From Burkholderiales bacterium (GTDB lineage Bacteria; Pseudomonadota; Gammaproteobacteria; Burkholderiales; Burkholderiaceae_C): a stretch of DNA of 40,188 nt. A program made the position numbers and the translations under genes. A model generated the notes under the pieces. The model searched no databases and was not told the DNA's origin. It worked only from the letters and a program-made list of their open reading frames with translations. Positions within the stretch are counted from its first letter, which is position 1. Every line of letters begins with the position of its first letter. Where the stretch lies: positions 39,729-79,916 of the forward strand of contig JAIXKN010000104.1 in the NCBI GenBank assembly GCA_026932425.1, in the 5' to 3' direction. Positions 2,668 to 19,360 of the stretch are shown piece by piece.

Positions 2668-3462
2668 TCAGGCGACGACGGCCCGCCTCCGTTGTTGCGC
2701 TTCACGTAAGCGCACGACGATCTTGATTTCTTCCTCGATGGTGAAGAAATAGGGATAAAGAGAGCGTCCTTGCTCCGGCGTGTCGAGCTTGCCGCCGAAC
2801 TGTTCGATCTGTGAAAATCCGTAAGCCAAGTCTCCACGCAATAACACGGCCGGCGCCTTCACGTTCTGGTTGGTGCGGACGTCGCTTGCTATTTCGAAGC
2901 CAAGCATGCGTTCGTAATATCTGACGTGGCGCGGATTGACCTCAATCACGGCGATCTGGCACTGATGAATGCGATGTGCGACGATGAAGGCAACATGGAA
3001 GAGGGCAGCCAAGACGCGCTTAGTGCCGCTGATCGGGTCGATGGCGAACTTCGTGAATTCGCACAACGTCTTCCCCTGTCGCCGTATCTCGTTTGTAAGA
3101 TCCGAAAACGCCGCGTCGGCGTTCAGGCCTTCAGGCCCATCCAAACCGACTGTTAACGTCCCAATCGTCTCGCCCTCTTCGATTGCGGAAAGAGAAATCC
3201 TGTTGGGTACTCCATCGGGGGGCAATTCAGCCTTGCCATAGCCGCGCCATGAATAACGATCACTGAGCAGGCGGCTCGCCGAATTGCGTTGAGCGAAGGA
3301 AGTTGCCTGCTTGATTTTGAACATCCTCGGCCCTGGCTGCCCTTCGCGTAACAAATCGATACGCGCATCCGCAGACAACATCGCATTCGCGCCGCGGTGA
3401 TGCAGCGACGGCGTCGCGATGATGGTGCTCTGCGGCCAGGGAACAGGATTCGTTTTTTTCAA
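2668..3462 (-). CDS. FeeM-type N-acyl amino acid synthase / PEP-CTERM-associated acyltransferase
   Basis: This is a GNAT-fold acyltransferase resembling the PEP-CTERM/exosortase-associated N-acyl amino acid synthases, which join a long fatty acyl chain from acyl-ACP to an amino acid. Visible family traits in the 264 residues are the N-terminal block MFKIKQATSF...RLLSDRYSWRGYG, a central CEFTKFAIDP strand, and EVNPRHVRYYERMLGFE near the C-terminus. The C-terminal glutamate/arginine-rich tail is poorly conserved. The frame opens at a TTG with GGAGG 10 bases upstream; an in-frame ATG 27 codons later (MLSADARID) is an alternative. It is convergent with prsR (7-base gap) and divergent from the second acyltransferase at 3681. 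GC and codon bias are clearly lower than in prsK. The substrate amino acid cannot be read from sequence. Confidence 0.75.
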   Translation of the reverse strand: MKKTNPVPWPQSTIIATPSLHHRGANAMLSADARIDLLREGQPGPRMFKIKQATSFAQRNSASRLLSDRYSWRGYGKAELPPDGVPNRISLSAIEEGETIGTLTVGLDGPEGLNADAAFSDLTNEIRRQGKTLCEFTKFAIDPISGTKRVLAALFHVAFIVAHRIHQCQIAVIEVNPRHVRYYERMLGFEIASDVRTNQNVKAPAVLLRGDLAYGFSQIEQFGGKLDTPEQGRSLYPYFFTIEEEIKIVVRLREAQQRRRAVVA

Positions 3463-3680
3463 TGGGATACATCCTCCATTCTGGACCTCAGTATACTTCT
3501 CGGCTCCCGCGCGGGTGCGTTCGATTGTAACCGACCGAGGTGATCGGATGGTGACGCGTTACCCTTGTCTGGCGATTAGGTAGGGGGTGTAGTGCGCAGC
3601 GGCCGAGGCCTCCCTCTGTGTGAAGGCTGGCGAGTGCGCTCTGGATGCAGGTCGATCGACCTGAATGGAGGACGAGAATC
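3463..3680. other. Divergent intergenic region between two acyltransferase genes
   Basis: This stretch of 218 bases separates two divergently read FeeM-type genes and must hold both promoters. A ribosome binding site (GGAGG) faces the minus-strand TTG start, and GGAGGA at 3666-3671 faces the plus-strand ATG at 3681. No convincing -24/-12 element and no strong -35/-10 pair was found in either direction. Confidence 0.4.
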
Positions 3681-5027
3681 ATGACCATCGAGCAGGGATT
3701 GCGCGCTGGCGAAAGGCGCCGTATGACGGCGTCGCACACGCTTCGACAGGCGACACGTACCGCGCTCGGATGGCTGCCGCAGTCAGTCAGGCATCGTCTG
3801 TACCGCAATATGGTCAGATGTGATCCCGCGCCCGACTCCAGGCTGAAACTCAAGATCGCGGAGTCATTGCCTGAGTTGGAGGGTTGCTTCTCGCTGCTGC
3901 ACGATGCCTATGTGACTTCTGGATTCATGAAACCCGACCCATCCGGCATGCGGGTCACGATTTACCATGCATTGCCGACCACCACGACTTTGGTTGCTCT
4001 TTGGGACGGTCGACCAGTCGGCACGCTTTCTTTGATCCGCGATGGGGCGTTTGGTTTGCCGATGCAGTCCGCGTTTGATCTGTCTTCCGTTCGACGAAAG
4101 GGAGGTCAGATTGCCGAGGTTTCAGCATTGGCGGTAGCCGATGAATTTCGACGAAGTGGCGGGACGATATTATTTCCATTGATGAAATTCATGTACGAAT
4201 ACTGTATCAAGTATTTCGATACGCGTCATCTAGTGATAGCTGTCAACCCTAACCGCATCGAGTTGTACGAATCGCTGCTGTTCTTCGAAAGGTTACCTGC
4301 ATCGACCGTAAATCACTACGACTTTGCCAACGGCGCACCCGCAGTGGGTGCGACGCTGGACTTGAGTAAGGCACTTGTTCGTTTCAAGACTGTGTACGGA
4401 GAGAAGCGGCCGTTAAGAAACCTATATTCATACTTCGTCGAAACGACGCTGGCGAATATAGACTTACCGCCGCGACCCTTGCACACCACCAACGATCCGG
4501 TGCTGACGCCGGGACTCATGGATCATTTCTTCAATCGGCGGACACAGGTCTTGTCCGTCCTCGAACCGCACGACCGCGCGTTGTTGCGGTCCATCTATCG
4601 GGGCACTAGCCTCGAGGCGGTGCTGCCAAGTGCCGGCGTCAAGGAGGTGGCGATGCGGCGCCATCCGCGGTACTCGATCCGCTGCCCGGCCAGGTTGAGC
4701 CTGGGGCACGACGGCAAGGGCGGCGAAGAGCTGTCGACGGTGCTGACCGACCTGTCGGAAGCCGGTTGTCGCGTGGAGTCCCCGGCACAAATGGAGATCG
4801 GACAGTCGGGCATGCTGGAGGTGGAACTGGGGCCGCGATGTCATTCGCTCCTGCAGGTTCAGGTGGTCCGGAGTGTCCGCGCGCCAGCGCCGGTCAGGCG
4901 ATACGCTTTGCGCGTCATTCACGCAGACGACAACTGGACCGAGTGCGTGCACGCGCTGGAAAGCGGCCTGACCTTCTCGGATCTGTTGGGCGGTGTGCCC
5001 GCCGGCGCAGCCGAGGCGTGCGTGTAA
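3681..5027 (+). CDS. FeeM-like acyltransferase fused to a C-terminal PilZ domain
   Basis: The protein has two parts. Residues 1 to about 300 form a GNAT-fold acyltransferase like the FeeM N-acyl amino acid synthases (QIAEVSALAVADEFR, then VIAVNPNRIELYESLLFFE, matching the same blocks in the gene at 2668). Residues about 323-430 form a PilZ domain with both c-di-GMP-binding signatures, RRHPR at 326-330 and DLSEAG at 357-362. PilZ domains bind cyclic di-GMP, so the acyltransferase may be allosterically controlled by this second messenger. ATG 3681 was chosen over an upstream ATG at 3645 because GGAGGA lies 9 bases ahead, giving 448 residues. The acyltransferase half is poorer in GC than the PilZ half. 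The gene runs tail-to-tail into prsT with a 24-base gap. The fold and PilZ motifs are clear; the acyl substrate is inferred. Confidence 0.78.
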   Translation: MTIEQGLRAGERRRMTASHTLRQATRTALGWLPQSVRHRLYRNMVRCDPAPDSRLKLKIAESLPELEGCFSLLHDAYVTSGFMKPDPSGMRVTIYHALPTTTTLVALWDGRPVGTLSLIRDGAFGLPMQSAFDLSSVRRKGGQIAEVSALAVADEFRRSGGTILFPLMKFMYEYCIKYFDTRHLVIAVNPNRIELYESLLFFERLPASTVNHYDFANGAPAVGATLDLSKALVRFKTVYGEKRPLRNLYSYFVETTLANIDLPPRPLHTTNDPVLTPGLMDHFFNRRTQVLSVLEPHDRALLRSIYRGTSLEAVLPSAGVKEVAMRRHPRYSIRCPARLSLGHDGKGGEELSTVLTDLSEAGCRVESPAQMEIGQSGMLEVELGPRCHSLLQVQVVRSVRAPAPVRRYALRVIHADDNWTECVHALESGLTFSDLLGGVPAGAAEACV

Positions 5028-8000: not shown

Positions 8001-8915
8001 TCAGGCGGCCGTCAGCTTGCGACGACGCGATGCCGCCCCAGCGCCGAGCAGCGCCAGACCAGCCAGCGCCAGCACGCCAGGTTCCGGGACACGATTCGCG
8101 AACAGAACGTTCCCAGAGCCGGAGCCCTTGTTCAACGGGGTCACCGAGGTCGTAACGTAGGTCATGCCCCCGCTGGTTGACCAAGTCGTACCCGCCTCAC
8201 CCGGGCCCGGCGGAATCGTGCCGGTCGCCGAGGCCGACAAATCAATGTCGAAAGGAACAGGTGCTTCCCAGAAACCACCAGGCCCCTCCGTATTCGCAGC
8301 GGGAGTGAAATTCATTTTCGCGCTGAACGACGTAAACGCGTCGTGATTGGCCGCCAAGTTCGCAATGCCCGATGCGAACGTCCCTGCCGCGAAAGTTGCG
8401 GTTCCAAGAACGAAATCCGATGCGTCCGGGATGATGCCGTACAGGTTGCCCAGCGTCGGCGTCGCGACGCCTACAGGTGCCGCGCCCGGGCTTCCGTACA
8501 AGGTCGCGGTCAGTGAGACATTCGTCGCACTCGGTGCAAAGACGCCCCCCGTGGCGGGGCTACCGCCGGGCATCCACGAGCCCGTGCCGCTGAGGGTGAA
8601 CAGCGCGTAGACGTTGTAGTTCTCTGTCACGCCGGTGACGGAGTTGGGGTGCCCCGAGAACGATTCCACCAAGAGAAAGCCCGTTTCCGAATAGGAAACC
8701 AATCCGGATGCGCCGGGCGCGGAGCTGATCTGCAGCAAGGACGCGTAGTTCGTCGTCGCCTTGTCTGTCTGGAACGCTGCGTCGGAGCTCAGCTGTCCCG
8801 CGCCGCCGTTGGTTGCCGATGGGTTCAGCGTGACGGTGGATGAAAAAGCGCTCGTTGTCAGCATCACCGCGCCGCCGAGTACAGCGGCCGCAGCAGTCTT
8901 GCGAAGTTGTTTCAT
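8001..8915 (-). CDS. Secreted PEP-CTERM sorting-domain protein
   Basis: This is a 304-residue exported protein ending in a canonical PEP-CTERM sorting signal: VPEPG at 276-280, a hydrophobic helix (VLALAGLALLGAGAA), then the basic cluster SRRRK. It is thus a likely substrate of the exosortase A encoded at 29900. The N-terminus is a Sec signal peptide (MKQLRKTAAAAVLGGAVML, cleavage near SAFSS). The mature part is rich in Ser, Thr, Gly and Ala, lacks cysteine and looks beta-rich. The start at 8915 was chosen over an upstream in-frame ATG at 8957 because it begins the signal peptide and has GGAG 6 bases upstream. A sigma-54 promoter candidate lies about 75 bases upstream. Its size and the motif SYSETGFL suggest the flocculation-associated PepA group, but this is only an impression. 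Confidence 0.9.
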   Translation of the reverse strand: MKQLRKTAAAAVLGGAVMLTTSAFSSTVTLNPSATNGGAGQLSSDAAFQTDKATTNYASLLQISSAPGASGLVSYSETGFLLVESFSGHPNSVTGVTENYNVYALFTLSGTGSWMPGGSPATGGVFAPSATNVSLTATLYGSPGAAPVGVATPTLGNLYGIIPDASDFVLGTATFAAGTFASGIANLAANHDAFTSFSAKMNFTPAANTEGPGGFWEAPVPFDIDLSASATGTIPPGPGEAGTTWSTSGGMTYVTTSVTPLNKGSGSGNVLFANRVPEPGVLALAGLALLGAGAASRRRKLTAA

Positions 8916-8990
8916 GTGACGCTCCAAAAAAACGGGATGACCGATTGGCATTCTCAAGGCGCCGCGCCTTCAGACGCACACTTCATGACA

Positions 8991-9263: not shown

Positions 9264-10397
9264 GTGAAAACCGAGATGAAGCGTTGCGTCAAGTGCCTGC
9301 TGCCCGCCGCGGTGCCCGGAGCCGACCTGAATGCGGCGGGGGTGTGCCGGCCCTGCCGCGACTACCGGCCCGCCGATCTCGGCCGCTTCGAGACGGTGCG
9401 GGCTTTGCGCGAGAAGGATCTGCAGCAAGCCTTGCAGAGCTGCCGGGGCGTGGGCGACTACGACTGCCTTGTGCCGCTGTCGGGGGGCAAGGACAGCGTC
9501 TACCTGATCCATCGGCTGAAGGTGGATTACGGGCTGCGGGTGCTGGCGCACACGACGGACATCGACATCGGCGAGGTGGCCTGGGCCAACATCCGGCGTG
9601 CGGTCGACAAACTGGACGTCGAGCATCTGGTCTACCGGCCGCCGATGCGCTTCTACCGTGACCTGTTCCGCTGGCTGCTGATGAACCAGGAAGCGCGTGG
9701 GGCGGTGCACACGATCTCTTACGTCTACGCACCGCTGTTCGAGGGCAACGCGCTGAAAGTCGCAGTGGAGAAGCGGATCCCGCTCGTGCTCGCAGGCTAC
9801 TCGCCCGGCCAACCGATTGCCGACCGCATGGAGTACGAGTTCCCTCCCGAGGCCATCGCGCAGGTCGACTGGACGCCGCCCGAACTCGCGGCGGCTGGGC
9901 AGTTCACGGATGAAGACCTGGCGCGGTTCTGGAACCCGGCGCACTATCCGCCGGGCACACGCTTTCCCCGCTACATCGCGCCTTACCATGCGTGGAAATA
10001 CGATCAGGATGCGATCATGAAGAAGGTGGTCGAACTGGGGTTGATCGCCAGTGCAAAGAACGCCAGCCCGGTGTTCTCCAACTATCCGATCAATTGGCTG
10101 CTGATGTATTCGGACCTGAAGAACTTGGGCTACAACCCCTACGCACCGGAATTCGCCGCGCTGATCCGTGAGGGCAAGGCGAGCCGCCGCTACTGGGGCC
10201 TGATGGCCAAGGTGGTGGATTTCATCACCCTCAACAAGATCTACCTCGGTCGTCACGTGGCAAGACACATGGCATGGCTGGGCCTGTCGGACGCCGACCT
10301 GCGCATCACTCGCTCCAGCCGTCGTGACTGGCCCGAATCCGTCTACCAGAGCAGGGCGACCAACGTGCTATTGCGACCGATATCGGAAGAGGCATGA
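9264..10397 (+). CDS. PP-loop amidotransferase, N-acetyl sugar amidotransferase-like
   Basis: The 377-residue protein resembles the N-acetyl sugar amidotransferase family (WbpG/PseA/LegG-like), ATP-pyrophosphatases that adenylate a substrate and replace oxygen with nitrogen. Visible features are two CxxC pairs (Cys8/Cys11 and Cys28/Cys31, a likely zinc knuckle) and the PP-loop SGGKDS at 73-78. Characterised WbpG-type enzymes receive ammonia from HisH/HisF-like partners, but no such genes are present in this window, so the nitrogen source or even the reaction may differ. The frame opens with GTG at 9264; ATG 9276 (MKRCVKCLLP) is an equally good start. It is the first gene of a tight operon and overlaps the next gene by 4 bases. 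Its neighbours are acyl/aromatic enzymes rather than sugar genes, so the substrate should be treated as unknown. Confidence 0.75.
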   Translation: MKTEMKRCVKCLLPAAVPGADLNAAGVCRPCRDYRPADLGRFETVRALREKDLQQALQSCRGVGDYDCLVPLSGGKDSVYLIHRLKVDYGLRVLAHTTDIDIGEVAWANIRRAVDKLDVEHLVYRPPMRFYRDLFRWLLMNQEARGAVHTISYVYAPLFEGNALKVAVEKRIPLVLAGYSPGQPIADRMEYEFPPEAIAQVDWTPPELAAAGQFTDEDLARFWNPAHYPPGTRFPRYIAPYHAWKYDQDAIMKKVVELGLIASAKNASPVFSNYPINWLLMYSDLKNLGYNPYAPEFAALIREGKASRRYWGLMAKVVDFITLNKIYLGRHVARHMAWLGLSDADLRITRSSRRDWPESVYQSRATNVLLRPISEEA

Positions 10398-12058
10398 GCG
10401 TGCCGTACGGGGCGTCGCGCACCGCCGCCACACTTCCGGCGACGCTGGTCGCAGCCCTCGAATCCCTCCTTGGTCCCGATGCGGTGCTGGCTGACGCCGA
10501 CGCGGTCGAGGCAGTGACTCGGACCTGCGTCCCCGTGCGCGAGTTGGCATCGGCGGTGGTCTACCCGTCTACTGCAGAGCAGGTGCAGGCCGTGCTGCGC
10601 TTGGCCTCGGAGGCGGGCGTGCCGGTGTGGCCGGTCAGTACCGGACGCAACTGGGGTTACGGCGAACGTTCGGCCTGCTATCCCGGAGGCATCACGCTCC
10701 TGCTGGAGCGCATGACCCGGATCTGGCACGTCGACGAGACGCTTGGCTATGCGATCGTCGAGCCCGGCGTCACCTACAAGCAGCTCAACGATCACCTGAA
10801 GCAATCGCGCTCGCGTCTGTGGGCCGACTGCGCAGGCAGCACGCAGTTCGCCAGCGTGATCGGCAACGCGCTCGACAAGGGGCGCGGCCTGACCCCGATG
10901 GCCGACCACTTCGGTGCGCTTTGTGGGATGGACGTCGCGCTGCCCGACGGCACGCTGATGGAGACCGGCGGTGGCGAAGCTGGGAACAACACCGTGCGGC
11001 ATCTGTACAAATGGGGCGTCGGACCGTATCTGGACGGGCTGTTCGCGCAGTCGAACCTGGGCGTAGTGGTCAGGGCAGGCATCTGGCTGATGCCGGCTCC
11101 GGCGGTGTTCGACTTCGCCGCCTTCGAGTACACGGCTGGACCCGAGCGTCTCGGCCCGTTCATCGACGACCTGCGCGAGCTGGTGATGCAGCGCGCAATC
11201 CGTGCGCACCCGCACCTGGCCAACGACTTCGCGATGATGTGCATCCTCTCGCAGTACCCGCACGAGGCGCTGCAAGGCCGTCGGCATCTCAGCGAGGCGG
11301 CGACGGCAGCGTGGCGCCGGCAGCACGGCGTGGCGGCGTGGACGTTCGGCTGCGGCCTCTACGGGAGCCGAGAGGAGGTGCGCTATCAGAAGCGGATGAT
11401 GCGACGCGTGCTGTCGCGCTACGGCCGCGTCCAGTTCATCGGCGCCGCGATCCGGGATGACTGGTTCGGCGCCATCGTACGGTGGGCCGCGCCGCGTGCC
11501 AACCGATTGCTGGGCAAGTCGCCCGAATTCACCAAGGTCATGTTGCCAGCGATCAACCTGTTCCGCGGCATTCCGACCGACGATTTCGTGCGTCAGGCCT
11601 ATTTCAAGTCGCACCGCGTCAAGCCCGAGCGCGACATCGACCCCGCACGCGACGGCTGCGGCTTCGTCTGGATCGGGCCCGTGGTACCGTTCACCGGCGA
11701 GCATGTCCTGAAGGCGCTGGCCCTGACGCGGCCGATCTTCGAGCGTCACGAGTTCGACTTCTTCGTCGAAGTCATCATCGAGAGCGCGCGCACGGTGATT
11801 GTCTTGGTTGGCGTCTTCTACGAACGGCACGACGCCGCCGACGCGGAGCGTGCACGACGCTGGTACGACGATGCGCGCGAAACCTACCGGGCGCATGGTT
11901 ATCCACCATACCGGGCGACATCGATGAGCACGGCCGAGGCGCTGACGGGTAATCCGCCGTTGTGCGATTTCCTGGGCACGATCAAGCGTGCTCTCGACCC
12001 TTCCGGCACGCTGGCACCGGGACGCTACGGCGTCGGAGTCCCGCCGGATCGCGCATGA
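10394..12058 (+). CDS. FAD-binding oxidoreductase, VAO/PCMH (4-cresol dehydrogenase-like) family
   Basis: This 554-residue flavoprotein is of the vanillyl-alcohol oxidase/p-cresol methylhydroxylase type. The FAD domain has the family strings PVSTGRNWGYG (about 75-85) and SVIGNALDKGRGLTPMADHFG (about 155-175). The C-terminus (PPLCDFLGTIKRALDPSGTLAPGRYG) matches the end of the 4-cresol dehydrogenase flavin subunit. Known members oxidise para-substituted phenols at the benzylic carbon, with electrons passing to oxygen or to a cytochrome c subunit. No cytochrome gene (CxxCH) is adjacent. Start and stop overlap both neighbours by 4 bases (ATGA), implying translational coupling. It has no signal peptide, so it is probably cytoplasmic. 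Family membership is fairly sure; a phenolic substrate is inferred. Confidence 0.82.
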   Translation: MSVPYGASRTAATLPATLVAALESLLGPDAVLADADAVEAVTRTCVPVRELASAVVYPSTAEQVQAVLRLASEAGVPVWPVSTGRNWGYGERSACYPGGITLLLERMTRIWHVDETLGYAIVEPGVTYKQLNDHLKQSRSRLWADCAGSTQFASVIGNALDKGRGLTPMADHFGALCGMDVALPDGTLMETGGGEAGNNTVRHLYKWGVGPYLDGLFAQSNLGVVVRAGIWLMPAPAVFDFAAFEYTAGPERLGPFIDDLRELVMQRAIRAHPHLANDFAMMCILSQYPHEALQGRRHLSEAATAAWRRQHGVAAWTFGCGLYGSREEVRYQKRMMRRVLSRYGRVQFIGAAIRDDWFGAIVRWAAPRANRLLGKSPEFTKVMLPAINLFRGIPTDDFVRQAYFKSHRVKPERDIDPARDGCGFVWIGPVVPFTGEHVLKALALTRPIFERHEFDFFVEVIIESARTVIVLVGVFYERHDAADAERARRWYDDARETYRAHGYPPYRATSMSTAEALTGNPPLCDFLGTIKRALDPSGTLAPGRYGVGVPPDRA

Positions 12059-13182
12059 AGGTTCTGCTCACCGGCTGCACCGGCACGATCGGAAGCGCGC
12101 TGGTGCCGCGGCTGCTGCGTGATCCGGCGGCCGAAATTGTCTTGCTGATGCGTGCGCGCGACGACGCCGACCTGCAGCACCGCTTTCGCTCGATGCTGTC
12201 GTACTGGTCGATTGCCGAAGGTGACGAGTGCGCTGCGCGGTTGTGGCCGCTGCGCGGCGACGTGTCGGCTACGAGGCTGGGGCTGGATGAGCGCACGCAC
12301 GACGAGCTCGGTCGCGAGTTGACGCACATCGTGCACTCGGCGGCCAGCGTCAAGCTGAACATGTCGATGGAGGAGGCCGTCGACACCGCGGTGATGCCGA
12401 CACGGCATATCCTGCAGCTTGGGCGTCTTGCGCAGGCGGCCGGCACCCTGGTGAAGATGGAGCTGGTCAGCACCGTTGGCGTCTGGGGGCGTACGCCCGG
12501 ATTGATGCCCGAGCAGCCGCTGCCCGACGTCGCCTCGTTCCACAATACCTACGAAGCAGCGAAGTCGCAGGCCGAGAGACTGATCTGGGACGAGGGTCGG
12601 GATCTGCCGGTCACCGTGCACCGCCCCAGCATGGTGGTCGGCGAGACCGGCAGCGGCCGCGTCGTGCACTTTCAAATCTTCTATCACTTGTGCGAGTTCC
12701 TCTCGGGCGCACGCACCTACGGCGTCATGCCCGACCTCGGTCAGCAGCGGCTGGACACGATCCCGGTCGACTGGGTGGCGGAAGTGATGTACTGGTCATT
12801 GAACCAGCCTGGCGCGGAAGGGCGCATCCTGCATCTGTGCTCGGGCCCCGAGCAGTCGATCCTGCTGACGCAGCTCCAGGACGAGGTACGTCGCCGGTGG
12901 GTGCTTCACGGGCGCCGCGTACCGGGGCTCATCCGCGTGCCTGCCGCGTTCCTGAGCCGTGCCGTGCCGGTGATCGGTCTCGTTGCGGGCGCTCGCGCGC
13001 GTCGCGCCCTGAAAGCGCTGCCTCCGGTGCTGGCCTACCTGTCCGAAGACCAGGCGTTCTCGAACCAGCGCACGCTCGCTCTGCTCGCCGATGCCGGTAT
13101 TTCGCTGCCGTCGGTAGCCAGCTATCTCGGTGTCGTGCTGGACTTCTATCTACGGACGGCCGAGCGGCGCGCAGCGTCGTGA
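12055..13182 (+). CDS. Extended SDR, thioester reductase-like (NAD-binding 4/male-sterility type)
   Basis: The 375-residue protein is an NAD(P)-binding short-chain dehydrogenase of the thioester-reductase/fatty-acyl-CoA-reductase group. The nucleotide-binding motif TGCTGTIGS is at 6-14 and the HSAASVKLNMS segment follows the fourth strand. The catalytic YxxxK is Y166-K170 (YEAAK), and VHRPSMVVGE follows it. Members reduce acyl thioesters to aldehydes or alcohols; some related proteins act as sugar or steroid epimerases/dehydrogenases. The ATG at 12055 overlaps the previous stop by 4 bases and begins directly with the Rossmann strand, so a longer upstream extension was rejected. An acyl-activating ligase follows, which fits an activate-then-reduce step. 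No carrier-protein domain is attached. Confidence 0.75.
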   Translation: MKVLLTGCTGTIGSALVPRLLRDPAAEIVLLMRARDDADLQHRFRSMLSYWSIAEGDECAARLWPLRGDVSATRLGLDERTHDELGRELTHIVHSAASVKLNMSMEEAVDTAVMPTRHILQLGRLAQAAGTLVKMELVSTVGVWGRTPGLMPEQPLPDVASFHNTYEAAKSQAERLIWDEGRDLPVTVHRPSMVVGETGSGRVVHFQIFYHLCEFLSGARTYGVMPDLGQQRLDTIPVDWVAEVMYWSLNQPGAEGRILHLCSGPEQSILLTQLQDEVRRRWVLHGRRVPGLIRVPAAFLSRAVPVIGLVAGARARRALKALPPVLAYLSEDQAFSNQRTLALLADAGISLPSVASYLGVVLDFYLRTAERRAAS

Positions 13183-13240
13183 GGGTGGGGCTGCGTTGCC
13201 AAGCGCCCATCCTGGTGCATCTCGTGCGAAGGATGATCGA

Positions 13241-15010
13241 GTGACCGCGCTGTGGGCATCTGCCGCCACTGTGCCTGAGCTGCTCGCGCATCGCGCCGCA
13301 GCGACGCCGGAAGGACAGGCCTTTGTAGCGGTGGGCGTCGGCGTAGCGAGATCGAGCCTGAGTTGGCAGCAGTTCGCCGACCAGGCAGCCAGGATGGCCG
13401 GGGCGCTGTATACGGCCGGATTGCGCCACGGTGATCGCATCGCGGTGCTGATCCCGGCGTCGATCGAATGGGAGCTGCTGCACCACGCGGTGCTGAGCCT
13501 GGGTGCCATCGTCGTCGGGCTCGATGCGCACGACGTTCCAGAGCGCCTGGCAGCGATGTGCGATCAGGTCGACGTTGTCGCTGTCGTGGCACCTGATTTC
13601 GGGCCGCTCGCGGCGCTGTCGCCCGAGCGCTGGCAGCGCTTGCGGTTCGTGATGACCCAGTCGGCTGGCGAAGGCGCGGCGCCGGTACGCAGCCTGGGTT
13701 GGGCTGAGTTGCTGGCGCTTCCCGCACCGCAGGAACCGCCTCGATCGCCGCAGCCCGACGATTTGGCAACGCTCATCTTCACTTCGGGAACGACGGGCAC
13801 GCCGAAGGCGATCCCTTACAGGCACCGTCAGGTGTGTGCGGCGGTGCACGCGATCGGGGAAGCCTTCGGCTTCATTGGCGTGGGCGGCCGACTGCTCTGC
13901 TGGTTGCCGCTGTCCAACCTGTTTCAGCGCATGGTGAACTTGGCCGGACTGCGCAACGGCGCCACGACCTTCGTTCTATCGGACCCGCGTCAAATCATGG
14001 ACGTGGTGGCGTTGGCCTCGCCCGACGTCTTCATCGGGGTGCCGCGCTTCTTCGAGAAGCTGCACCAGGGAATCGTCGCGAAGCTGGAGGAATTGCCGCC
14101 GCTGCAGCGCCGCGCGGCGCAATGGGCTTGTCAAGTCGGGCGCGACGTCGGGCGCGTGCGGCTGGCGGGTGGCAAGCCCCAGCGCTGGCTGGGCCTCAAG
14201 CATCGTGCCGCCGAACGCTGGGTGCTATCGCGCCTTCGCACGTCAGTGATGGGCAGGCGACTGCGCTTCATGATCACGGGTTCGGCGCCGACACCGCCGC
14301 CGCTGCTGACGGAGTTCTACGCGCTCGGATGGCCATTGCTGGAGGCCTATGGCCTGAGCGAGAACGTGATGCCGATGGCGATGAACCGCATCGAGGATTT
14401 CCGTTTCGGGACTGTTGGCAAACCCTTCCCCGGCAACGAACTGGCGATCGGTCCGGATGACACGATCCTGGTGCGCAGCGCTTGTCTGGCGCGTCCCGCT
14501 GGTGACCTGGCCGGCACGCCCGTCGACGCACAGGGTTACTACGATACCGGCGACCTGGGAAGCATCGACGCCGACGGGTTCGTGCGCCTGTCGGGTCGCA
14601 AGAGCGAAGTCTTCAAGACTTCTACCGGCCGCCGCGTATCCCCATATGCGGCCGAGGCGGCGCTGCGCGCGGTGCCCGGCATCGACCAGGCAGTCCTGGT
14701 GGGTGCCGGGCGCAAGTGCGTCGTCGCTCTTTGCGCTACCCCAGCTCCGGTTGCGCTATCTGACCGTCGGGCGCTGCAGCAGGCGCTGAGTGCCGCGGTC
14801 GAGGGGGTGGGCGTGCATGAGCGGCCGCAGGCGATTGCCATGGTGCCGCATGCCTTCACGGTGGAGCACGGCGAGCTGACGCCCAATCTCAAGTTGCGCC
14901 GCGCAGCGATCGAGCAACTGCACGCTGAGGCGATCGAGGCGGCGTACGCAGGACTCGGCGCGGTGAGTGGCAGTGCAGGCCGACTACTCGTCGTCTGGCC
15001 AGCAGAATGA
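13241..15010 (+). CDS. AMP-binding acyl-CoA synthetase/ligase
   Basis: This 589-residue ANL-superfamily enzyme would activate a carboxylic acid as acyl-AMP and then probably as a CoA thioester. The P-loop motif TSGTTGTPK is at 181-189, EAYGLSEN begins at residue 368, and the YYDTGDLG segment has its conserved Asp at 438. A C-terminal region ends with PNLKLRR, carrying the expected basic residues. Overall it looks most like long-chain fatty acyl-CoA synthetases. GTG 13241 is preferred because a start at 13130 would overlap the preceding gene by 53 bases and add a segment unlike the family. It follows the reductase after 58 bases. The substrate could be a fatty acid or an aromatic acid. Confidence 0.85.
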   Translation: MTALWASAATVPELLAHRAAATPEGQAFVAVGVGVARSSLSWQQFADQAARMAGALYTAGLRHGDRIAVLIPASIEWELLHHAVLSLGAIVVGLDAHDVPERLAAMCDQVDVVAVVAPDFGPLAALSPERWQRLRFVMTQSAGEGAAPVRSLGWAELLALPAPQEPPRSPQPDDLATLIFTSGTTGTPKAIPYRHRQVCAAVHAIGEAFGFIGVGGRLLCWLPLSNLFQRMVNLAGLRNGATTFVLSDPRQIMDVVALASPDVFIGVPRFFEKLHQGIVAKLEELPPLQRRAAQWACQVGRDVGRVRLAGGKPQRWLGLKHRAAERWVLSRLRTSVMGRRLRFMITGSAPTPPPLLTEFYALGWPLLEAYGLSENVMPMAMNRIEDFRFGTVGKPFPGNELAIGPDDTILVRSACLARPAGDLAGTPVDAQGYYDTGDLGSIDADGFVRLSGRKSEVFKTSTGRRVSPYAAEAALRAVPGIDQAVLVGAGRKCVVALCATPAPVALSDRRALQQALSAAVEGVGVHERPQAIAMVPHAFTVEHGELTPNLKLRRAAIEQLHAEAIEAAYAGLGAVSGSAGRLLVVWPAE

Positions 15011-15026
15011 GGAGCGGACAGGGGCG

Positions 15027-16421
15027 ATGAACGTCTTCTCGCTTGCAGTCAGGAACCTGCTCCGCAACCGCCGCCGGTCGCTGACGACGCTGGTCGCGGT
15101 GGCTCTAGGCACGGCGGCGATCCTGCTGTTCGGCGGCTACCGTGCGGCGATCAACTACGCGATGCAGACGGTTTACGTGCGTTCCGGCGGGCATCTGCAG
15201 ATTCAGCACCGTGATTTCTTCCTCTTCGGGAGTGGCAATCCCACGGGCTATGCGATCGAGCACTACCAAGCCATCATCGACGCCATCCGCAAGGATCCGA
15301 CGTTGAGGGAAATGGTCCTCGTGGTCACGCCGACACTTCAGCTTGGTGGCATCGCCGGCAACTACGCTGCTGGCGTGTCGCGCACAGTGGTTGGCCTCGG
15401 CCTGGTTGCATCAGACCATGTCGCGATGCGGAAGTGGGATCCTTACGATGTCGGATTCGCTGCGCCTGAGCTCGAACTCGACGGTGCGGCGTCGAATGCG
15501 GCCGTCATCGGGATCGGTCTGGCGCGAGTGTTGCAGCTCTGTGCCCCGCTGGGCATCGAAGATTGCCCCAAACCGGCGAGGCACGGCGACGAGCCATCCG
15601 GCAATGGCGTGGCCCTGCCCGACGACGTGGCGGCTCTGGCTGCAGCGGCCGGGCCGGCGCCGAAGGAAGAGCCGCGGAACATCGAGCTGTTGTCGGGGAA
15701 CGCTCGTGGTACCCCCAACGTTGCGACCCTGCGGATCGTCGCTGCCGAGCAGCAAGGCTTCAAGGAGCTGGACGAGATCTACATGTTGCTGCACTTGACT
15801 CAGGCACAGCGCTTGGTCTACGGATCATCAGCGCCCAAGGTGACCGCGATCCTGGTGCAGCTCCGGGATACCGCACGGACTGCTGAAGTGCACGAGCACA
15901 TCGAAACGAGGCTGGCCGAGTGGTCAGCAGGTCAGCCGCTGGTGGTGCGGGATTTCGGCGAGCTGAACCCGTTCTATGTGCAATCCGTTCAGCTTTTCGA
16001 CACCATCTTCGGCTTCATGTTTCTGCTCATTGGTGGGATCGTGATGTTTACTGTCAGCAATACCATGAACGCCTCGGTGGTGGAGCGCACGATCGAGGTC
16101 GGCACACTGCGGGCGATCGGCCTGCGTCAACTGGGCATACGCAGGATGTTCATCGCTGAAGGCTCGGTTATCGGAGCTGCCGGCGCGCTGCTGGGCGTGG
16201 CTTGCGCGCTGGCTGGATCGGCGATCGTCAACCGAATGGAGCTGACGTGGACGCCGCCAGGTGCCGCTGGGCCGGTGCCGTTGAACTTGGTAGTGTGGGG
16301 TGAGACGCTGATGATCATCGGCACGGCGCTCTGTCTCGTCGCCGTTACCATCGCGTCTGCGTGGTGGCCCGCCTATCGCGCCGCACGGCTCAATGTCGTC
16401 GAGGCCCTGAGGCATGTTTAG
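15027..16421 (+). CDS. ABC transporter permease, FtsX/MacB/LolC-E type
   Basis: The 464-residue protein has the four-helix layout of the MacB/LolCE class. One N-terminal membrane segment follows the basic stretch RNLLRNRRR (about 25-45), a large periplasmic domain spans about 50-310, and three C-terminal membrane helices form the FtsX domain. The segment ERTIEVGTLRAIGLR between helices 2 and 3 is the typical coupling sequence. Transporters of this class move lipids, lipoproteins or hydrophobic molecules from the outer leaflet of the inner membrane, not across it. ATG 15027 begins the membrane-anchored part; an upstream start at 14967 lies inside the ligase gene. It overlaps the LolA-like gene by 8 bases. 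The matching ATPase is encoded at 18536. Confidence 0.88.
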   Translation: MNVFSLAVRNLLRNRRRSLTTLVAVALGTAAILLFGGYRAAINYAMQTVYVRSGGHLQIQHRDFFLFGSGNPTGYAIEHYQAIIDAIRKDPTLREMVLVVTPTLQLGGIAGNYAAGVSRTVVGLGLVASDHVAMRKWDPYDVGFAAPELELDGAASNAAVIGIGLARVLQLCAPLGIEDCPKPARHGDEPSGNGVALPDDVAALAAAAGPAPKEEPRNIELLSGNARGTPNVATLRIVAAEQQGFKELDEIYMLLHLTQAQRLVYGSSAPKVTAILVQLRDTARTAEVHEHIETRLAEWSAGQPLVVRDFGELNPFYVQSVQLFDTIFGFMFLLIGGIVMFTVSNTMNASVVERTIEVGTLRAIGLRQLGIRRMFIAEGSVIGAAGALLGVACALAGSAIVNRMELTWTPPGAAGPVPLNLVVWGETLMIIGTALCLVAVTIASAWWPAYRAARLNVVEALRHV

Positions 16422-17217
16422 TCGTTTTGTCGCCGTTGCCGTGAACATCCGCGCCATCGCGATGGCCGTTTTGACCGTATCGCTGGCCACTACTGCGAGT
16501 GTCGCAGCGCCGGCCGCACAAGATCTGTTGCGAGCGAGCGACGCCATTCGCAACCCAGCTCGTCCATTCAAGGCCCGCGTCGTACTGACCGAGTTTGAGG
16601 AGGGCAAGCAGGTCGACACCAGTACGCTGGTGACTTACTCGCGGGAGCAGGACAACAGTGGGCAGTACGCGACGCTGGTCAGCTTCGTTCATCCGGCACG
16701 GGACGCGGGCAAGCTGATGCTGCGTAACGGTGACGACCTGTGGTTTTACGACCCCAGCACCAAGGCCAGTATCCGCTTGTCGCCTCAGCAGCGGCTGATG
16801 GGCCAAGCGTCGAACGGCGACGTCGTGACCGTGAACTTGGCGAGGGACTACGCCGCCAAGCTCCTGGCGGAGGAAATGGTGGTGAATGGCGAGCGCAAAG
16901 AGCGCCGAAGTTTCAAGCTGGGCCTGATCGCGAGTGCGCCGTCGGCGACTTACGCCAGCATTGAGTATTGGGTCGACGCCGAGAACAAGCGGCCCATCAA
17001 GGGCCTCTTCTATGCCGAGAGTGGCCACCTGCTGAAAACTGTCTTCTATCGTCGCTACCAGGCTCAGTTGGGCGAAGACAGACCGACCGAGATGGTTATC
17101 ATCGACGGGCTGAAGCCGCAGTCGGTCACCCTGATGAGGTTCTCGGACTTCTCGACGCCAACCATCCCTGCGACTTGGTTCAGTCGCGATTACTTGCCTC
17201 GATTCCAACCGGAGTAG
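16414..17217 (+). CDS. LolA-like periplasmic carrier (outer membrane lipoprotein-sorting protein family)
   Basis: This 267-residue exported protein resembles the LolA-like 'outer membrane lipoprotein-sorting' family. The signal peptide covers about 1-32 (cleavage near ASVAA-P). The body shows LWFYDPSTKASIRLSPQQRLMGQASNGDV (about 109-137), a stretch typical of this family, followed by strands that would build the open beta-barrel lipid-binding fold. LolA-fold proteins shuttle hydrophobic cargo through the periplasm. Its position between an FtsX-type permease and an outer-membrane barrel suggests that it hands cargo from one to the other. This is a paralogue-type protein rather than the housekeeping LolA. 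Confidence 0.82.
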   Translation: MFSRFVAVAVNIRAIAMAVLTVSLATTASVAAPAAQDLLRASDAIRNPARPFKARVVLTEFEEGKQVDTSTLVTYSREQDNSGQYATLVSFVHPARDAGKLMLRNGDDLWFYDPSTKASIRLSPQQRLMGQASNGDVVTVNLARDYAAKLLAEEMVVNGERKERRSFKLGLIASAPSATYASIEYWVDAENKRPIKGLFYAESGHLLKTVFYRRYQAQLGEDRPTEMVIIDGLKPQSVTLMRFSDFSTPTIPATWFSRDYLPRFQPE

Positions 17218-17220
17218 CGT

Positions 17221-18510
17221 TTGTCGAGATCCAACGTACATGGACTGCGCCGTGCGCTGCAGATCATCTTGTTGGCTGGGTGTTCACTGGCTTCGGCGCA
17301 GAGTGCGGGTGATCTGAGCGCTCTGGATCTCGAGAGCGCCGACGACATTCAAGCGGTCGCCGCGGCGCCAAGCCATCTGACGATCGAACTGGCGCTCGGC
17401 AACGACCGGCGGCGCTTTGATCTTGCTACGCAGGACACCGCGCGTGCTTCGATCGACTGGGTGTACCGGCAGAAGCTGGGTGCTGGTACCCGCCTGGTGG
17501 TGTCCGACCGTATCGACTTCCTGCGTCCGCACGATGCCCGCGGTGGGGAGCACTTGGTCAACAGCCTGCGCGAGGCCTACGTCGGCTGGACGGACGAGGA
17601 GGGTAATCTTGCGCTCGACTTCGGACGTGTGAACATACGCTCGGGTCCGGCGTACGGCTACAACCCGACCGATTTCTTCCGCGGCGGTTCGTTGCGCTCG
17701 ATGCCCACGGCGGACCCGGTTGCGCTGCGCGCAAACCGCATGGGTACCGTTGTCTTGCGTGCGCAAAGCCTTTGGCGGAATGGTTCGCTGACAGTCAACT
17801 TGTCGCCCGAATTGCGGGATGGTCCGAGCACCGATCCATGGAGCCTGGATTTGGGTTCGACCAACGCTGCCGATCGCGCGCTGGTGACGTTGGCGACGCA
17901 GTGGTCTGACCGACTCAATACCCAGCTTCATGTCTTCAAGCAAGCCGGGTCGCCAGTACAACTGGGAGCCAGCGGGTCGGTGTTGGTGTCAGATGCTGTG
18001 GTCGCCTATGCCGAACTCACCTCTTCTCGCGAGCCGGCTCCGCCCGTCGCAGCCATGCTCGGCAACGGATCGCGGCGTCGTGGTGAACGAGTATCGGCTG
18101 GGCTCACCTACACCACGCCCGGCAAGCTGTCCATCACCGCTGAACTGCAGTACAACGCACACGCCCTGGCCGATGCGCAGTGGGATCGTGCTGCCTTGGT
18201 TGCGCCGCGGGGGCTTGCTGCCTACGTCGCCGATGCCTTGTGGCGGCAGGATCTGGCGGGGCGCCGCGGTTACCTGATCTACGTGTCGCAGCGGGACTTG
18301 GTCATCAAGAATCTCCATCTGACCGCCTTCGTGCAGACCAACGCGCATGATCGAAGCCGGCTGTCGTGGCTGGAGCTCCGGCGGCAATGGACGGCACTCG
18401 AGGCCGCGGTGCAGCTGCAATACCAATCGGCAGGCAGAGGAGGTGCCTCCGAATTCGGGCTGGCGCCCAATCGGGCTTCGTTGGCGGTGTTGGCCGGATA
18501 TCGGTTCTGA
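17221..18510 (+). CDS. Outer-membrane beta-barrel protein, DUF1302/alginate-export-like
   Basis: The 429-residue protein has an N-terminal signal peptide (possible cleavage after ASA at 24-26) and many alternating hydrophobic/polar strands. It ends in an aromatic residue (LAVLAGYRF), the usual mark of a BAM-inserted outer-membrane barrel. The segment LDFGRVNIRSGPAYGYNPTDFF resembles DUF1302-type barrels, which are often encoded with LolA-like proteins and lipid transporters. A lipobox-like LAGC (18-21) is also present, so lipidation cannot be excluded. The TTG start is supported by GGAG at 17211-17214, 6 bases upstream, and no in-frame ATG is nearby. The spacing to the LolA-like gene is 3 bases. 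Cargo is unknown. Confidence 0.72.
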   Translation: MSRSNVHGLRRALQIILLAGCSLASAQSAGDLSALDLESADDIQAVAAAPSHLTIELALGNDRRRFDLATQDTARASIDWVYRQKLGAGTRLVVSDRIDFLRPHDARGGEHLVNSLREAYVGWTDEEGNLALDFGRVNIRSGPAYGYNPTDFFRGGSLRSMPTADPVALRANRMGTVVLRAQSLWRNGSLTVNLSPELRDGPSTDPWSLDLGSTNAADRALVTLATQWSDRLNTQLHVFKQAGSPVQLGASGSVLVSDAVVAYAELTSSREPAPPVAAMLGNGSRRRGERVSAGLTYTTPGKLSITAELQYNAHALADAQWDRAALVAPRGLAAYVADALWRQDLAGRRGYLIYVSQRDLVIKNLHLTAFVQTNAHDRSRLSWLELRRQWTALEAAVQLQYQSAGRGGASEFGLAPNRASLAVLAGYRF

Positions 18511-18535
18511 CCTGAGCCTGGGCAGGACGACGGGA

Positions 18536-19360
18536 ATGTCGGATATCGATCCAGCCGATGCTGTCGCGTCGCTGACCGATGTCGTCAAGTCCTATCGGAT
18601 GGACGCCGTTACCGTCCCGGTGCTGCGCGGTGTCAATCTGTCGGTCCGGCTTGGTCATTTCACCGTCGTGCTTGGGCCCTCGGGCAGCGGCAAGACGACG
18701 ATGCTGAATCTGCTGGGGTGCATTGACCGTCCCGATGAGGGCAGGGTGGTTGTTGCTGGAGTCGACATCGCGACGCTGGACGATGATGAGCTGTCGGATT
18801 TCCGTGCTGAGAACATCGGATTCGTGTTCCAGAACTTCAATCTGATCCCGGTGCTGAGCGCCTTCGAGAATGTCGAATACCCGCTGGTATTGGCCGGGAT
18901 GGAGCCGGCGCGTCGTCGTCGGCGTGTGATGCGACTGCTGGAAGCGGTGGGATTGGAGGGGCGAGCCAACAACCTTCCCGGCCAACTCTCGGGCGGGCAA
19001 CGTCAGCGTGTCGCCATAGCGCGTGCGCTGGCACGGAAGCCCAAGGTTGTGATCGCTGATGAGCCAACGGCCAACCTTGACAGCAAGACTGGCGCGGCCA
19101 TCATTGCGCTGATGCGCTGGATGCAACAGAAGTTCCATATCTCGTTCATCTTCTCGTCACACGACAGCAGTTTGATCAAGGCGGCGGATGACCTGATTCT
19201 CCTCCGCGACGGCGCGATCCAGTCGGTGCGCCGCAAGCCCGCTTCTGTACCCGGCGACAACGCGGAGCTTGCCGGTGATTTCGACGATCTCATCGATGGC
19301 GATGCTCGCGGGAGTCGTTCCCTGAAGGCTCTGCCGGACACGGCTTGGCTCGAGTCGTGA
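18536..19360 (+). CDS. ABC transporter ATP-binding protein, LolD/MacB type
   Basis: This 274-residue ATPase is the partner of the FtsX-type permease at 15027. It has Walker A GPSGSGKT at 47-54, Q-loop Gln99 in FVFQNFNLIPVLSAFENVEYPL (characteristic of the LolD/MacB/FtsE group), signature LSGGQ at 151-155, Walker B VVIADEP at 171-177 and the H-loop in FSSHD. It is unusual in being separated from its permease by the periplasmic carrier and the barrel gene, which argues that all four form one export path. ATG 18536 was chosen; a start at 18347 would overlap the barrel gene. It is the last gene of the operon. Confidence 0.9.
   Translation: MSDIDPADAVASLTDVVKSYRMDAVTVPVLRGVNLSVRLGHFTVVLGPSGSGKTTMLNLLGCIDRPDEGRVVVAGVDIATLDDDELSDFRAENIGFVFQNFNLIPVLSAFENVEYPLVLAGMEPARRRRRVMRLLEAVGLEGRANNLPGQLSGGQRQRVAIARALARKPKVVIADEPTANLDSKTGAAIIALMRWMQQKFHISFIFSSHDSSLIKAADDLILLRDGAIQSVRRKPASVPGDNAELAGDFDDLIDGDARGSRSLKALPDTAWLES

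Follow-up and report, generated by a model that had tools for sequence, protein, structure and literature searches.

The window analysed here, a stretch of 40,188 nucleotides of Burkholderiales DNA, carries between positions 9264 and 19360 eight plus strand genes coding, in this order, for a PP-loop enzyme, a flavoprotein, a short-chain dehydrogenase/reductase (SDR), an acyl-CoA ligase, an FtsX-type permease, a LolA-like carrier, an outer-membrane barrel and a LolD-like ATPase. An earlier note, made from the letters alone, had described them as a tightly packed operon for biosynthesis and export. The packing was confirmed: the junctions are −4, −4, +49, +16, −8, +3 and +25 bp. The genes were assigned by hidden Markov model (HMM) searches, sequence and fold; the starts of the SDR, ligase, FtsX and LolD genes are our choice within longer listed open reading frames (ORFs).

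9264..10397, plus strand: PP-loop (SGGKDS) enzyme with a tetracysteine motif, divergent and N-acetyl-sugar-amidotransferase (WbuX/WbpG)-like
10394..12058, plus strand: VAO/PCMH-type flavoprotein, predicted 4-alkylphenol oxidase (FAD_binding_4, 2.8e-24; phenol-binding triad Y89, Y506, R507)
12055..13182, plus strand: SDR resembling thioester reductases and fatty-acyl-CoA reductases (NAD_binding_4, 1.2e-45)
13232..15010, plus strand: AMP-forming acyl-CoA ligase (AMP-binding, 1.1e-58)
15027..16421, plus strand: FtsX/LolCE-like ABC permease (FtsX, 6e-12)
16414..17217, plus strand: LolA-like periplasmic lipid/lipoprotein carrier (LolA_like PF17131, 4.7e-37; solved relative 3buu)
17221..18510, plus strand: outer-membrane beta-barrel, porin/AlgE-like (predicted fold, moderate-confidence model)
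18536..19360, plus strand: LolD/MacB-type ABC ATPase (ABC_tran, 1.4e-32; TIGR02211, 214.5 bits, under the cut-off of 307.75)

The recurrence of these families was followed in public genomes. As a probe, the flavoprotein gene reached E 1e-40 or better in 10 of 274 genomes from the class; besides its own copy (100%) these were only paralogues (about 27-37% identity, one short stretch 48%), and for this reason the PP-loop gene was used instead. Relatives of the PP-loop protein were found by two peptide patterns, which miss divergent relatives, and the best 80 of the 90 confirmed ones were taken. Counts out of 81 refer to these 80 fetched loci plus the window, and the gene calls in the loci (labelled L) are our picks of ORFs, not curated annotation. 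The 80 loci are mostly from Pseudomonadota, with others from Planctomycetota and Desulfobacterales and single loci titled Omnitrophota, Kiritimatiellae and Parachlamydiales. They are not all independent: L097 and L099 are near-identical, with identical PP-loop parts, L074 and L113 also share a PP-loop protein, and L098, L046, L054 and L059 seem to correspond to genomes met in our other samples. Two bins titled Klebsiella pneumoniae (L048, L112) are doubtful as to name; their PP-loop protein groups with that of gammaproteobacterial bins.

Ligase and SDR genes both lie nearby on the same strand in 55 of the 57 loci that have at least 4.5 kb downstream of the PP-loop gene. The exceptions are L104, without the SDR, and L109, without either. 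In two planctomycete loci of the Stieleria/Rhodopirellula type (L097 and L099, 9926-12868) PP-loop enzyme and ligase form one ORF of 980 residues. The pairwise distances of the three proteins are correlated (rho 0.48, 0.54 and 0.80 vs permuted maxima of 0.26, 0.21 and 0.23; 66 of 67 rows used); common descent of the hosts is by itself enough to produce such a correlation. Since this core recurs far beyond the source genome, the grouping of the operon is more than chance. It is present in cultured bacteria such as Nitrosomonas europaea, Methylomonas sp. LW13 and Rhodopirellula/Stieleria. In a sample of 399 genomes of the order, the source genome included, the PP-loop protein had a match in eight; seven are orthologues with 59-100% identity.

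The gene-neighbourhood search that the earlier note had called for thus found the families together elsewhere, mostly in exosortase genomes. What held was the three-enzyme core and not the full set: besides the window, all eight families were found in L043, L045 and L058 only (3/80), or also in L062 and L080 if a DUF1302 barrel is counted. The core together with LolD, FtsX and LolA occurs in 13/80 loci. The conserved unit is PP-loop enzyme, ligase and SDR; exporter and flavoprotein often accompany it but may be exchanged or absent. We consider it probable, with room for doubt, that this exosortase/PEP-CTERM-linked cluster makes and exports a modified lipid of the N-acyl-amino-acid type.

What the earlier note called a PP-loop amidotransferase is related to the N-acetyl sugar amidotransferases but divergent from them. 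With TIGR03573, the model of that family, it scored 93.7 bits, under the cut-off of 203.2, and is not filed as a member; a Pfam search of the protein gave no match. In the alignment made for folding, which took in 38 of the 81 PP-loop sequences, the SGGXDS motif (S73-G-G-K-D-S78) is invariant. So are C8, C11, C28 and C31, which fit the tetracysteine motif CXXC-Xn-[GN]XCXXC as defined for N-acetyl sugar amidotransferases in excerpts of PMC10607449. The solved structure closest to the predicted fold is an N-acetyl sugar amidotransferase; other fold relatives include sulfur transferases and a nitrile synthetase.

With both the closest named family and the closest solved structure being of this kind, and with glycosyltransferase-like and exopolysaccharide-export-like ORFs in the window (our reading of the ORFs), the enzyme might be a genuine N-acetyl sugar amidotransferase, decorating the exopolysaccharide of this locus with acetamidino groups, its neighbours being incidental. 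We hold this to be very unlikely: the score is less than half of the cut-off, the gene is tied to ligase and SDR in nearly all informative loci and fused to the ligase in two, and the eighth match in the order sample (L033, 34% identity) has none of the other queried genes within 20 kb.

A lipid of the N-acyl-amino-acid type is suggested by genes on the upstream side of the operon, where two genes of FeeM-type N-acyl amino acid synthases (NAS), a TPR gene and a divergent PEP-CTERM gene are found. The TPR gene is presumably PrsT-like, judging by its place in an XrtA locus.

2668..3462, minus strand: FeeM-type NAS (PF21926, 2.8e-47)
3645..5027, plus strand: FeeM-type NAS with a C-terminal PilZ domain (PF21926, 1.2e-43; PilZ, 2e-8)
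8001..8957, minus strand: PEP-CTERM protein, divergent from the operon (C-terminal VPEP...RRRK tail)

FeeM-type NAS enzymes join a fatty acid to an amino acid. The two synthases score 160.9 and 149.1 bits against a cut-off of 27 and are the only FeeM matches in the source genome, a bin of 3.09 Mb and 84% completeness whose PP-loop protein groups with those of other Burkholderiales, e.g. Aquabacterium and Rubrivivax. The link to these genes, offered with a 'perhaps' in the earlier note, has become firmer. An NAS gene of one of three types is present in 38/81 loci, window included, and in 15/81 it lies at most 350 bp upstream of the core on the same strand; in L039, L041, L042 and L043 a homologue of the NAS-PilZ gene of the window stands directly upstream of the PP-loop gene. 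Single runs are formed by NAS, DevC, LolD, DevB, PP-loop enzyme, ligase and SDR in L060, L082 and L093, and by NAS, LolA, PP-loop enzyme, ligase and SDR in L107. The PilZ domain of the 3645-5027 synthase suggests that supply of the lipid may be under c-di-GMP control. This two-domain form matches Nas343/Nas354 as described in excerpts of PMC4897644.

Ligase and SDR match, among other families, the two catalytic halves of carboxylic acid reductases, and their catalytic motifs are intact. The C-terminal lysine of the adenylating-enzyme motif is present in 69/69 ligases; in the SDR (listed-ORF numbering) the three glycines of TGxxGxxG, Thr171 and YxxxK are kept in 64/64 sequences and the first Thr in 63/64. 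A domain search of the two proteins found no carrier domain. The ligase scores 85.2 bits with TIGR03098, the exosortase A-associated acyl-CoA ligase, whose cut-off is 592.35. Its best subfamily matches are fatty-acid ligases, and the SDR matches the 'male sterility' domain, which is known from fatty-acyl reductases. Both matches would suit a route to fatty aldehydes, alcohols or amides, in which ligase and SDR act on plain fatty acids, the PP-loop enzyme amidates a fatty acyl group and the NAS is a mere neighbour. We think such a route quite unlikely, given the 15 loci with a closely spaced upstream NAS gene and the NAS genes within longer runs in L060, L082, L093, L101 and L107; it would also leave a phenol-binding flavoprotein without a substrate.

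In that flavoprotein the phenol-binding triad of vanillyl-alcohol oxidase (VAO) and PCMH is kept in 27/27 sequences, window included (Y89, Y506, R507), pointing to a tyrosine-type substrate. In PCMH the triad presumably includes Tyr95 and Arg474. For VAO the role is ascribed to Tyr108, Tyr503 and Arg504, with Tyr473 in the PCMH counterpart, in excerpts of PMC10404669 and PMC5646868. At the aligned positions Glu427 and His436 of PCMH are not conserved, so the side-chain chemistry may differ from that of PCMH. We take these two to be active-site residues that mark PCMH and not the 4-phenol oxidase group as a whole. By pairwise comparison the flavoprotein is present in 26 other loci with 38-77% identity and at least 94% coverage; two more copies are cut by contig ends and one has 28% identity. 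The HMM count of FAD proteins (32 loci) is larger and includes glycolate-oxidase-like proteins.

The exporter genes resemble the Lol system. The ATPase stays under the LolD cut-off, as listed above, and the permease scores 79.4 bits against a LolCE cut-off of 362.45. An over-cut-off LolCE with a LolD-like ATPase alongside lies on another contig of the genome (C94), and the exporter of the operon is additional to it; the strongest LolD of the genome (305.8 bits), next to this LolCE, is likewise under its cut-off. The LolA-like protein has a solved relative, 3buu (NE2245), at 3.8e-35. The barrel matched nothing in either HMM library searched; structure prediction gave a barrel of about 18 strands (pLDDT 66) that resembles porins of the Occ/OprD and AlgE kinds, generic matches with a TM of about 0.5. 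The orphan structure 3buu (NE2245) is itself the LolA-like protein near the core cluster of N. europaea (L062, 1-788), and the cluster supplies a context for it.

Exporters vary by lineage (Lol-like with this barrel, Lol-like with a DUF1302 barrel, or DevBC-like), and in 19 of the 39 widest loci the exporter families are not represented by any ABC gene. Enzymes and exporter could on these grounds be two independent adjacent modules, the Lol-like one serving another cargo, which we judge decidedly unlikely. In L050, L058, L060, L082, L093 and L101 exporter genes and core form one same-strand run, and the pairing of one core with several exporter types speaks for a shared cargo. In L058 the run comprises LolD, FtsX, LolA, barrel, PP-loop enzyme, ligase, SDR and flavoprotein; in the planctomycete loci L060, L082, L093 and L101 the exporter is DevB/DevC-like. 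Outside the planctomycetes it is often LolA with a DUF1302 barrel.

The next gene downstream of the operon, after 302 bp, is Wza-like; past it come exopolysaccharide-type genes and then XrtA (from about 29960, over the curated cut-off). The exosortase family PF09721 was found in 68/79 source genomes of the loci vs 54/299 genomes of a phylum sample (Fisher p 1.6e-29, a value that ignores kinship and compares loci reaching beyond the sampled phylum). The 11 genomes without a match are all titled as metagenome-assembled genomes; the 17 searched genomes without such a title (15 named strains, two Candidatus) all have one. In the order sample XrtA is over its cut-off in 6/7 genomes with the PP-loop gene vs 92/392 of the others (p 0.0011, kinship ignored; three of the seven share one genus). 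PEP-CTERM-like ORFs occur in 47/81 loci and in 41/50 loci of at least 15 kb; after shuffling, 0 of 3757 ORFs passed the test. In the latter loci they are mostly of about 260-340 codons and at most 10 kb from the core. Excerpts of a 2006 listing (PMC1569441) give N. europaea 8 and R. baltica 12 PEP-CTERM proteins, numbers at which chance position would account for a few percent in these two and for more in richer genomes. A single family of partner proteins was considered and dropped: 50 PEP-CTERM proteins from the counted loci fall into 21 sequence groups, and when the three largest were compared with the rest, one clear link emerged, between a group of six and a lone protein (probability 90). 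Nor is there a case for a sigma-54 site close to the operon: the window has 19 matches vs 19.7 expected.

Family identities and co-occurrence are observed; substrates and step order in the following scheme are our proposal. The FeeM-type NAS would couple a fatty acid with an amino acid that is probably tyrosine. The AMP-forming ligase would then activate the free carboxylate and the SDR reduce it to an alpha-amido aldehyde, as in a carboxylic acid reductase split over two genes. In the third and least certain step the PP-loop enzyme may use ATP to place nitrogen on the amide (or carboxyl) carbon, on the model of the N-acetyl sugar amidotransferases, which turn acetamido into acetamidino groups; with an amidine next to the aldehyde, ring closure to an imidazole or imidazoline could follow. 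In loci that have the 4-alkylphenol oxidase, this enzyme would oxidise the tyrosyl side chain, as its intact triad suggests. By homology, the LolD-like ATPase and FtsX permease would extract the lipid from the inner membrane for transport by the LolA-like carrier, with the barrel as its receiver at the outer membrane. On the best reading of the sequence data the product would be a carboxyl-reduced, probably amidated or cyclised N-acyl-tyrosine lipid. One specific heterocycle, an imidazole or imidazoline, is unlikely.

We favour a modified N-acyl-amino-acid lipid because of the recurrence of the core, the correlated distances, the PP-loop-ligase fusion, the proximity of NAS genes and the phenol triad, and also because of the intact catalytic motifs, the PP-loop fold and the exporter held in addition to LolCE. 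Several points weigh against it. The fetched stretches of the 39 widest loci contain an ABC gene from the exporter families in 20 cases, an NAS in 17 cases and a flavoprotein of the VAO type in 16, about half or fewer for each, so the core substrate need not be tyrosine. Judging by its fold relatives, the PP-loop enzyme might perform nitrogen, sulfur or nitrile chemistry. No dedicated ammonia source was recognised among the annotated families, though no search was aimed at one. The window's own NAS genes are not adjacent to the operon: 4.2 and 5.8 kb lie between their ends and its start, including two opposite-strand genes. Finally, at the threshold used, no PP-loop gene was found in 92/98 order-sample genomes with XrtA over the cut-off.

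This last figure means that the lipid cannot be a general exosortase acceptor. It might still be the membrane anchor onto which exosortase transfers some PEP-CTERM proteins, LolA-like carrier and barrel taking the lipid or a lipid-protein conjugate to the outer membrane. The exosortase genomes, the PEP-CTERM-like neighbours and the export genes would fit such a role, which we regard as highly improbable.

The cluster provides a full candidate pathway, with activation, reduction, nitrogen transfer, phenol oxidation and export. NAS and exosortases have been linked for years, and we know of no role for the lipid. With the core in cultured bacteria, a possible part of the lipid in surface-protein sorting and in the biofilm matrix can be tested by gene removal.

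Searches of open-licence PMC papers, most of them judged from listings, gave no description of this gene set. Craig, Cherry and Brady, whose work is cited in PMC7293339 and PMC11072679, reportedly described in 2011 N-acyl amino acid synthase genes beside PEP-CTERM/exosortase loci. Our loci are like that system in their FeeM-type and TIGR03694 synthases, exosortase genomes and PEP-CTERM neighbours; to our knowledge, the PP-loop/ligase/SDR core and the exporter were not part of the description. Like carboxylic acid reductases (e.g. 5msp), the operon has an adenylating and a reductase half, but in separate genes and not in one chain. It shares ATPase, FtsX and LolA-like parts with LolCDE-LolA, and the planctomycete loci share DevB/DevC-like parts with DevBCA, whereas the scores are under the LolD, LolCE, DevB and DevC cut-offs. 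From the N-acetyl sugar amidotransferases WbuX, WbpG and LpNASAT (8wex), as presented in excerpts of PMC10607449, the PP-loop protein differs by its score under the family cut-off and by its acyl-CoA ligase partner, to which it is fused in two loci.

A further comparison is with pathways of N-acyl tyrosines. For tyrazolone, stieleriacine, thalassotalic acid and kyonggic acid, cyclisation or oxidation of N-acyl tyrosine is shown or proposed in excerpts of PMC12479983 and PMC7293339, which also tie a ThiF-family type to the N-acyl dehydrotyrosine and tyrazolone clusters. In 4/81 loci (L047, L074, L109, L113) the stretch fetched around the PP-loop gene also contains a ThiF-family gene. Like the stieleriacine, thalassotalic acid and kyonggic acid clusters of these excerpts, the present system is NAS-centred, with N-acyl-tyrosine and tyrosyl oxidation as putative common features, and the S. 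maiorica cluster also has a PEP-CTERM gene. According to the same excerpts, the double bond is assigned there to ThiF and nitroreductase genes, neither of which is among the eight genes of the operon; in their stead the operon has a 4-phenol oxidase, a ligase, an SDR and a PP-loop enzyme.

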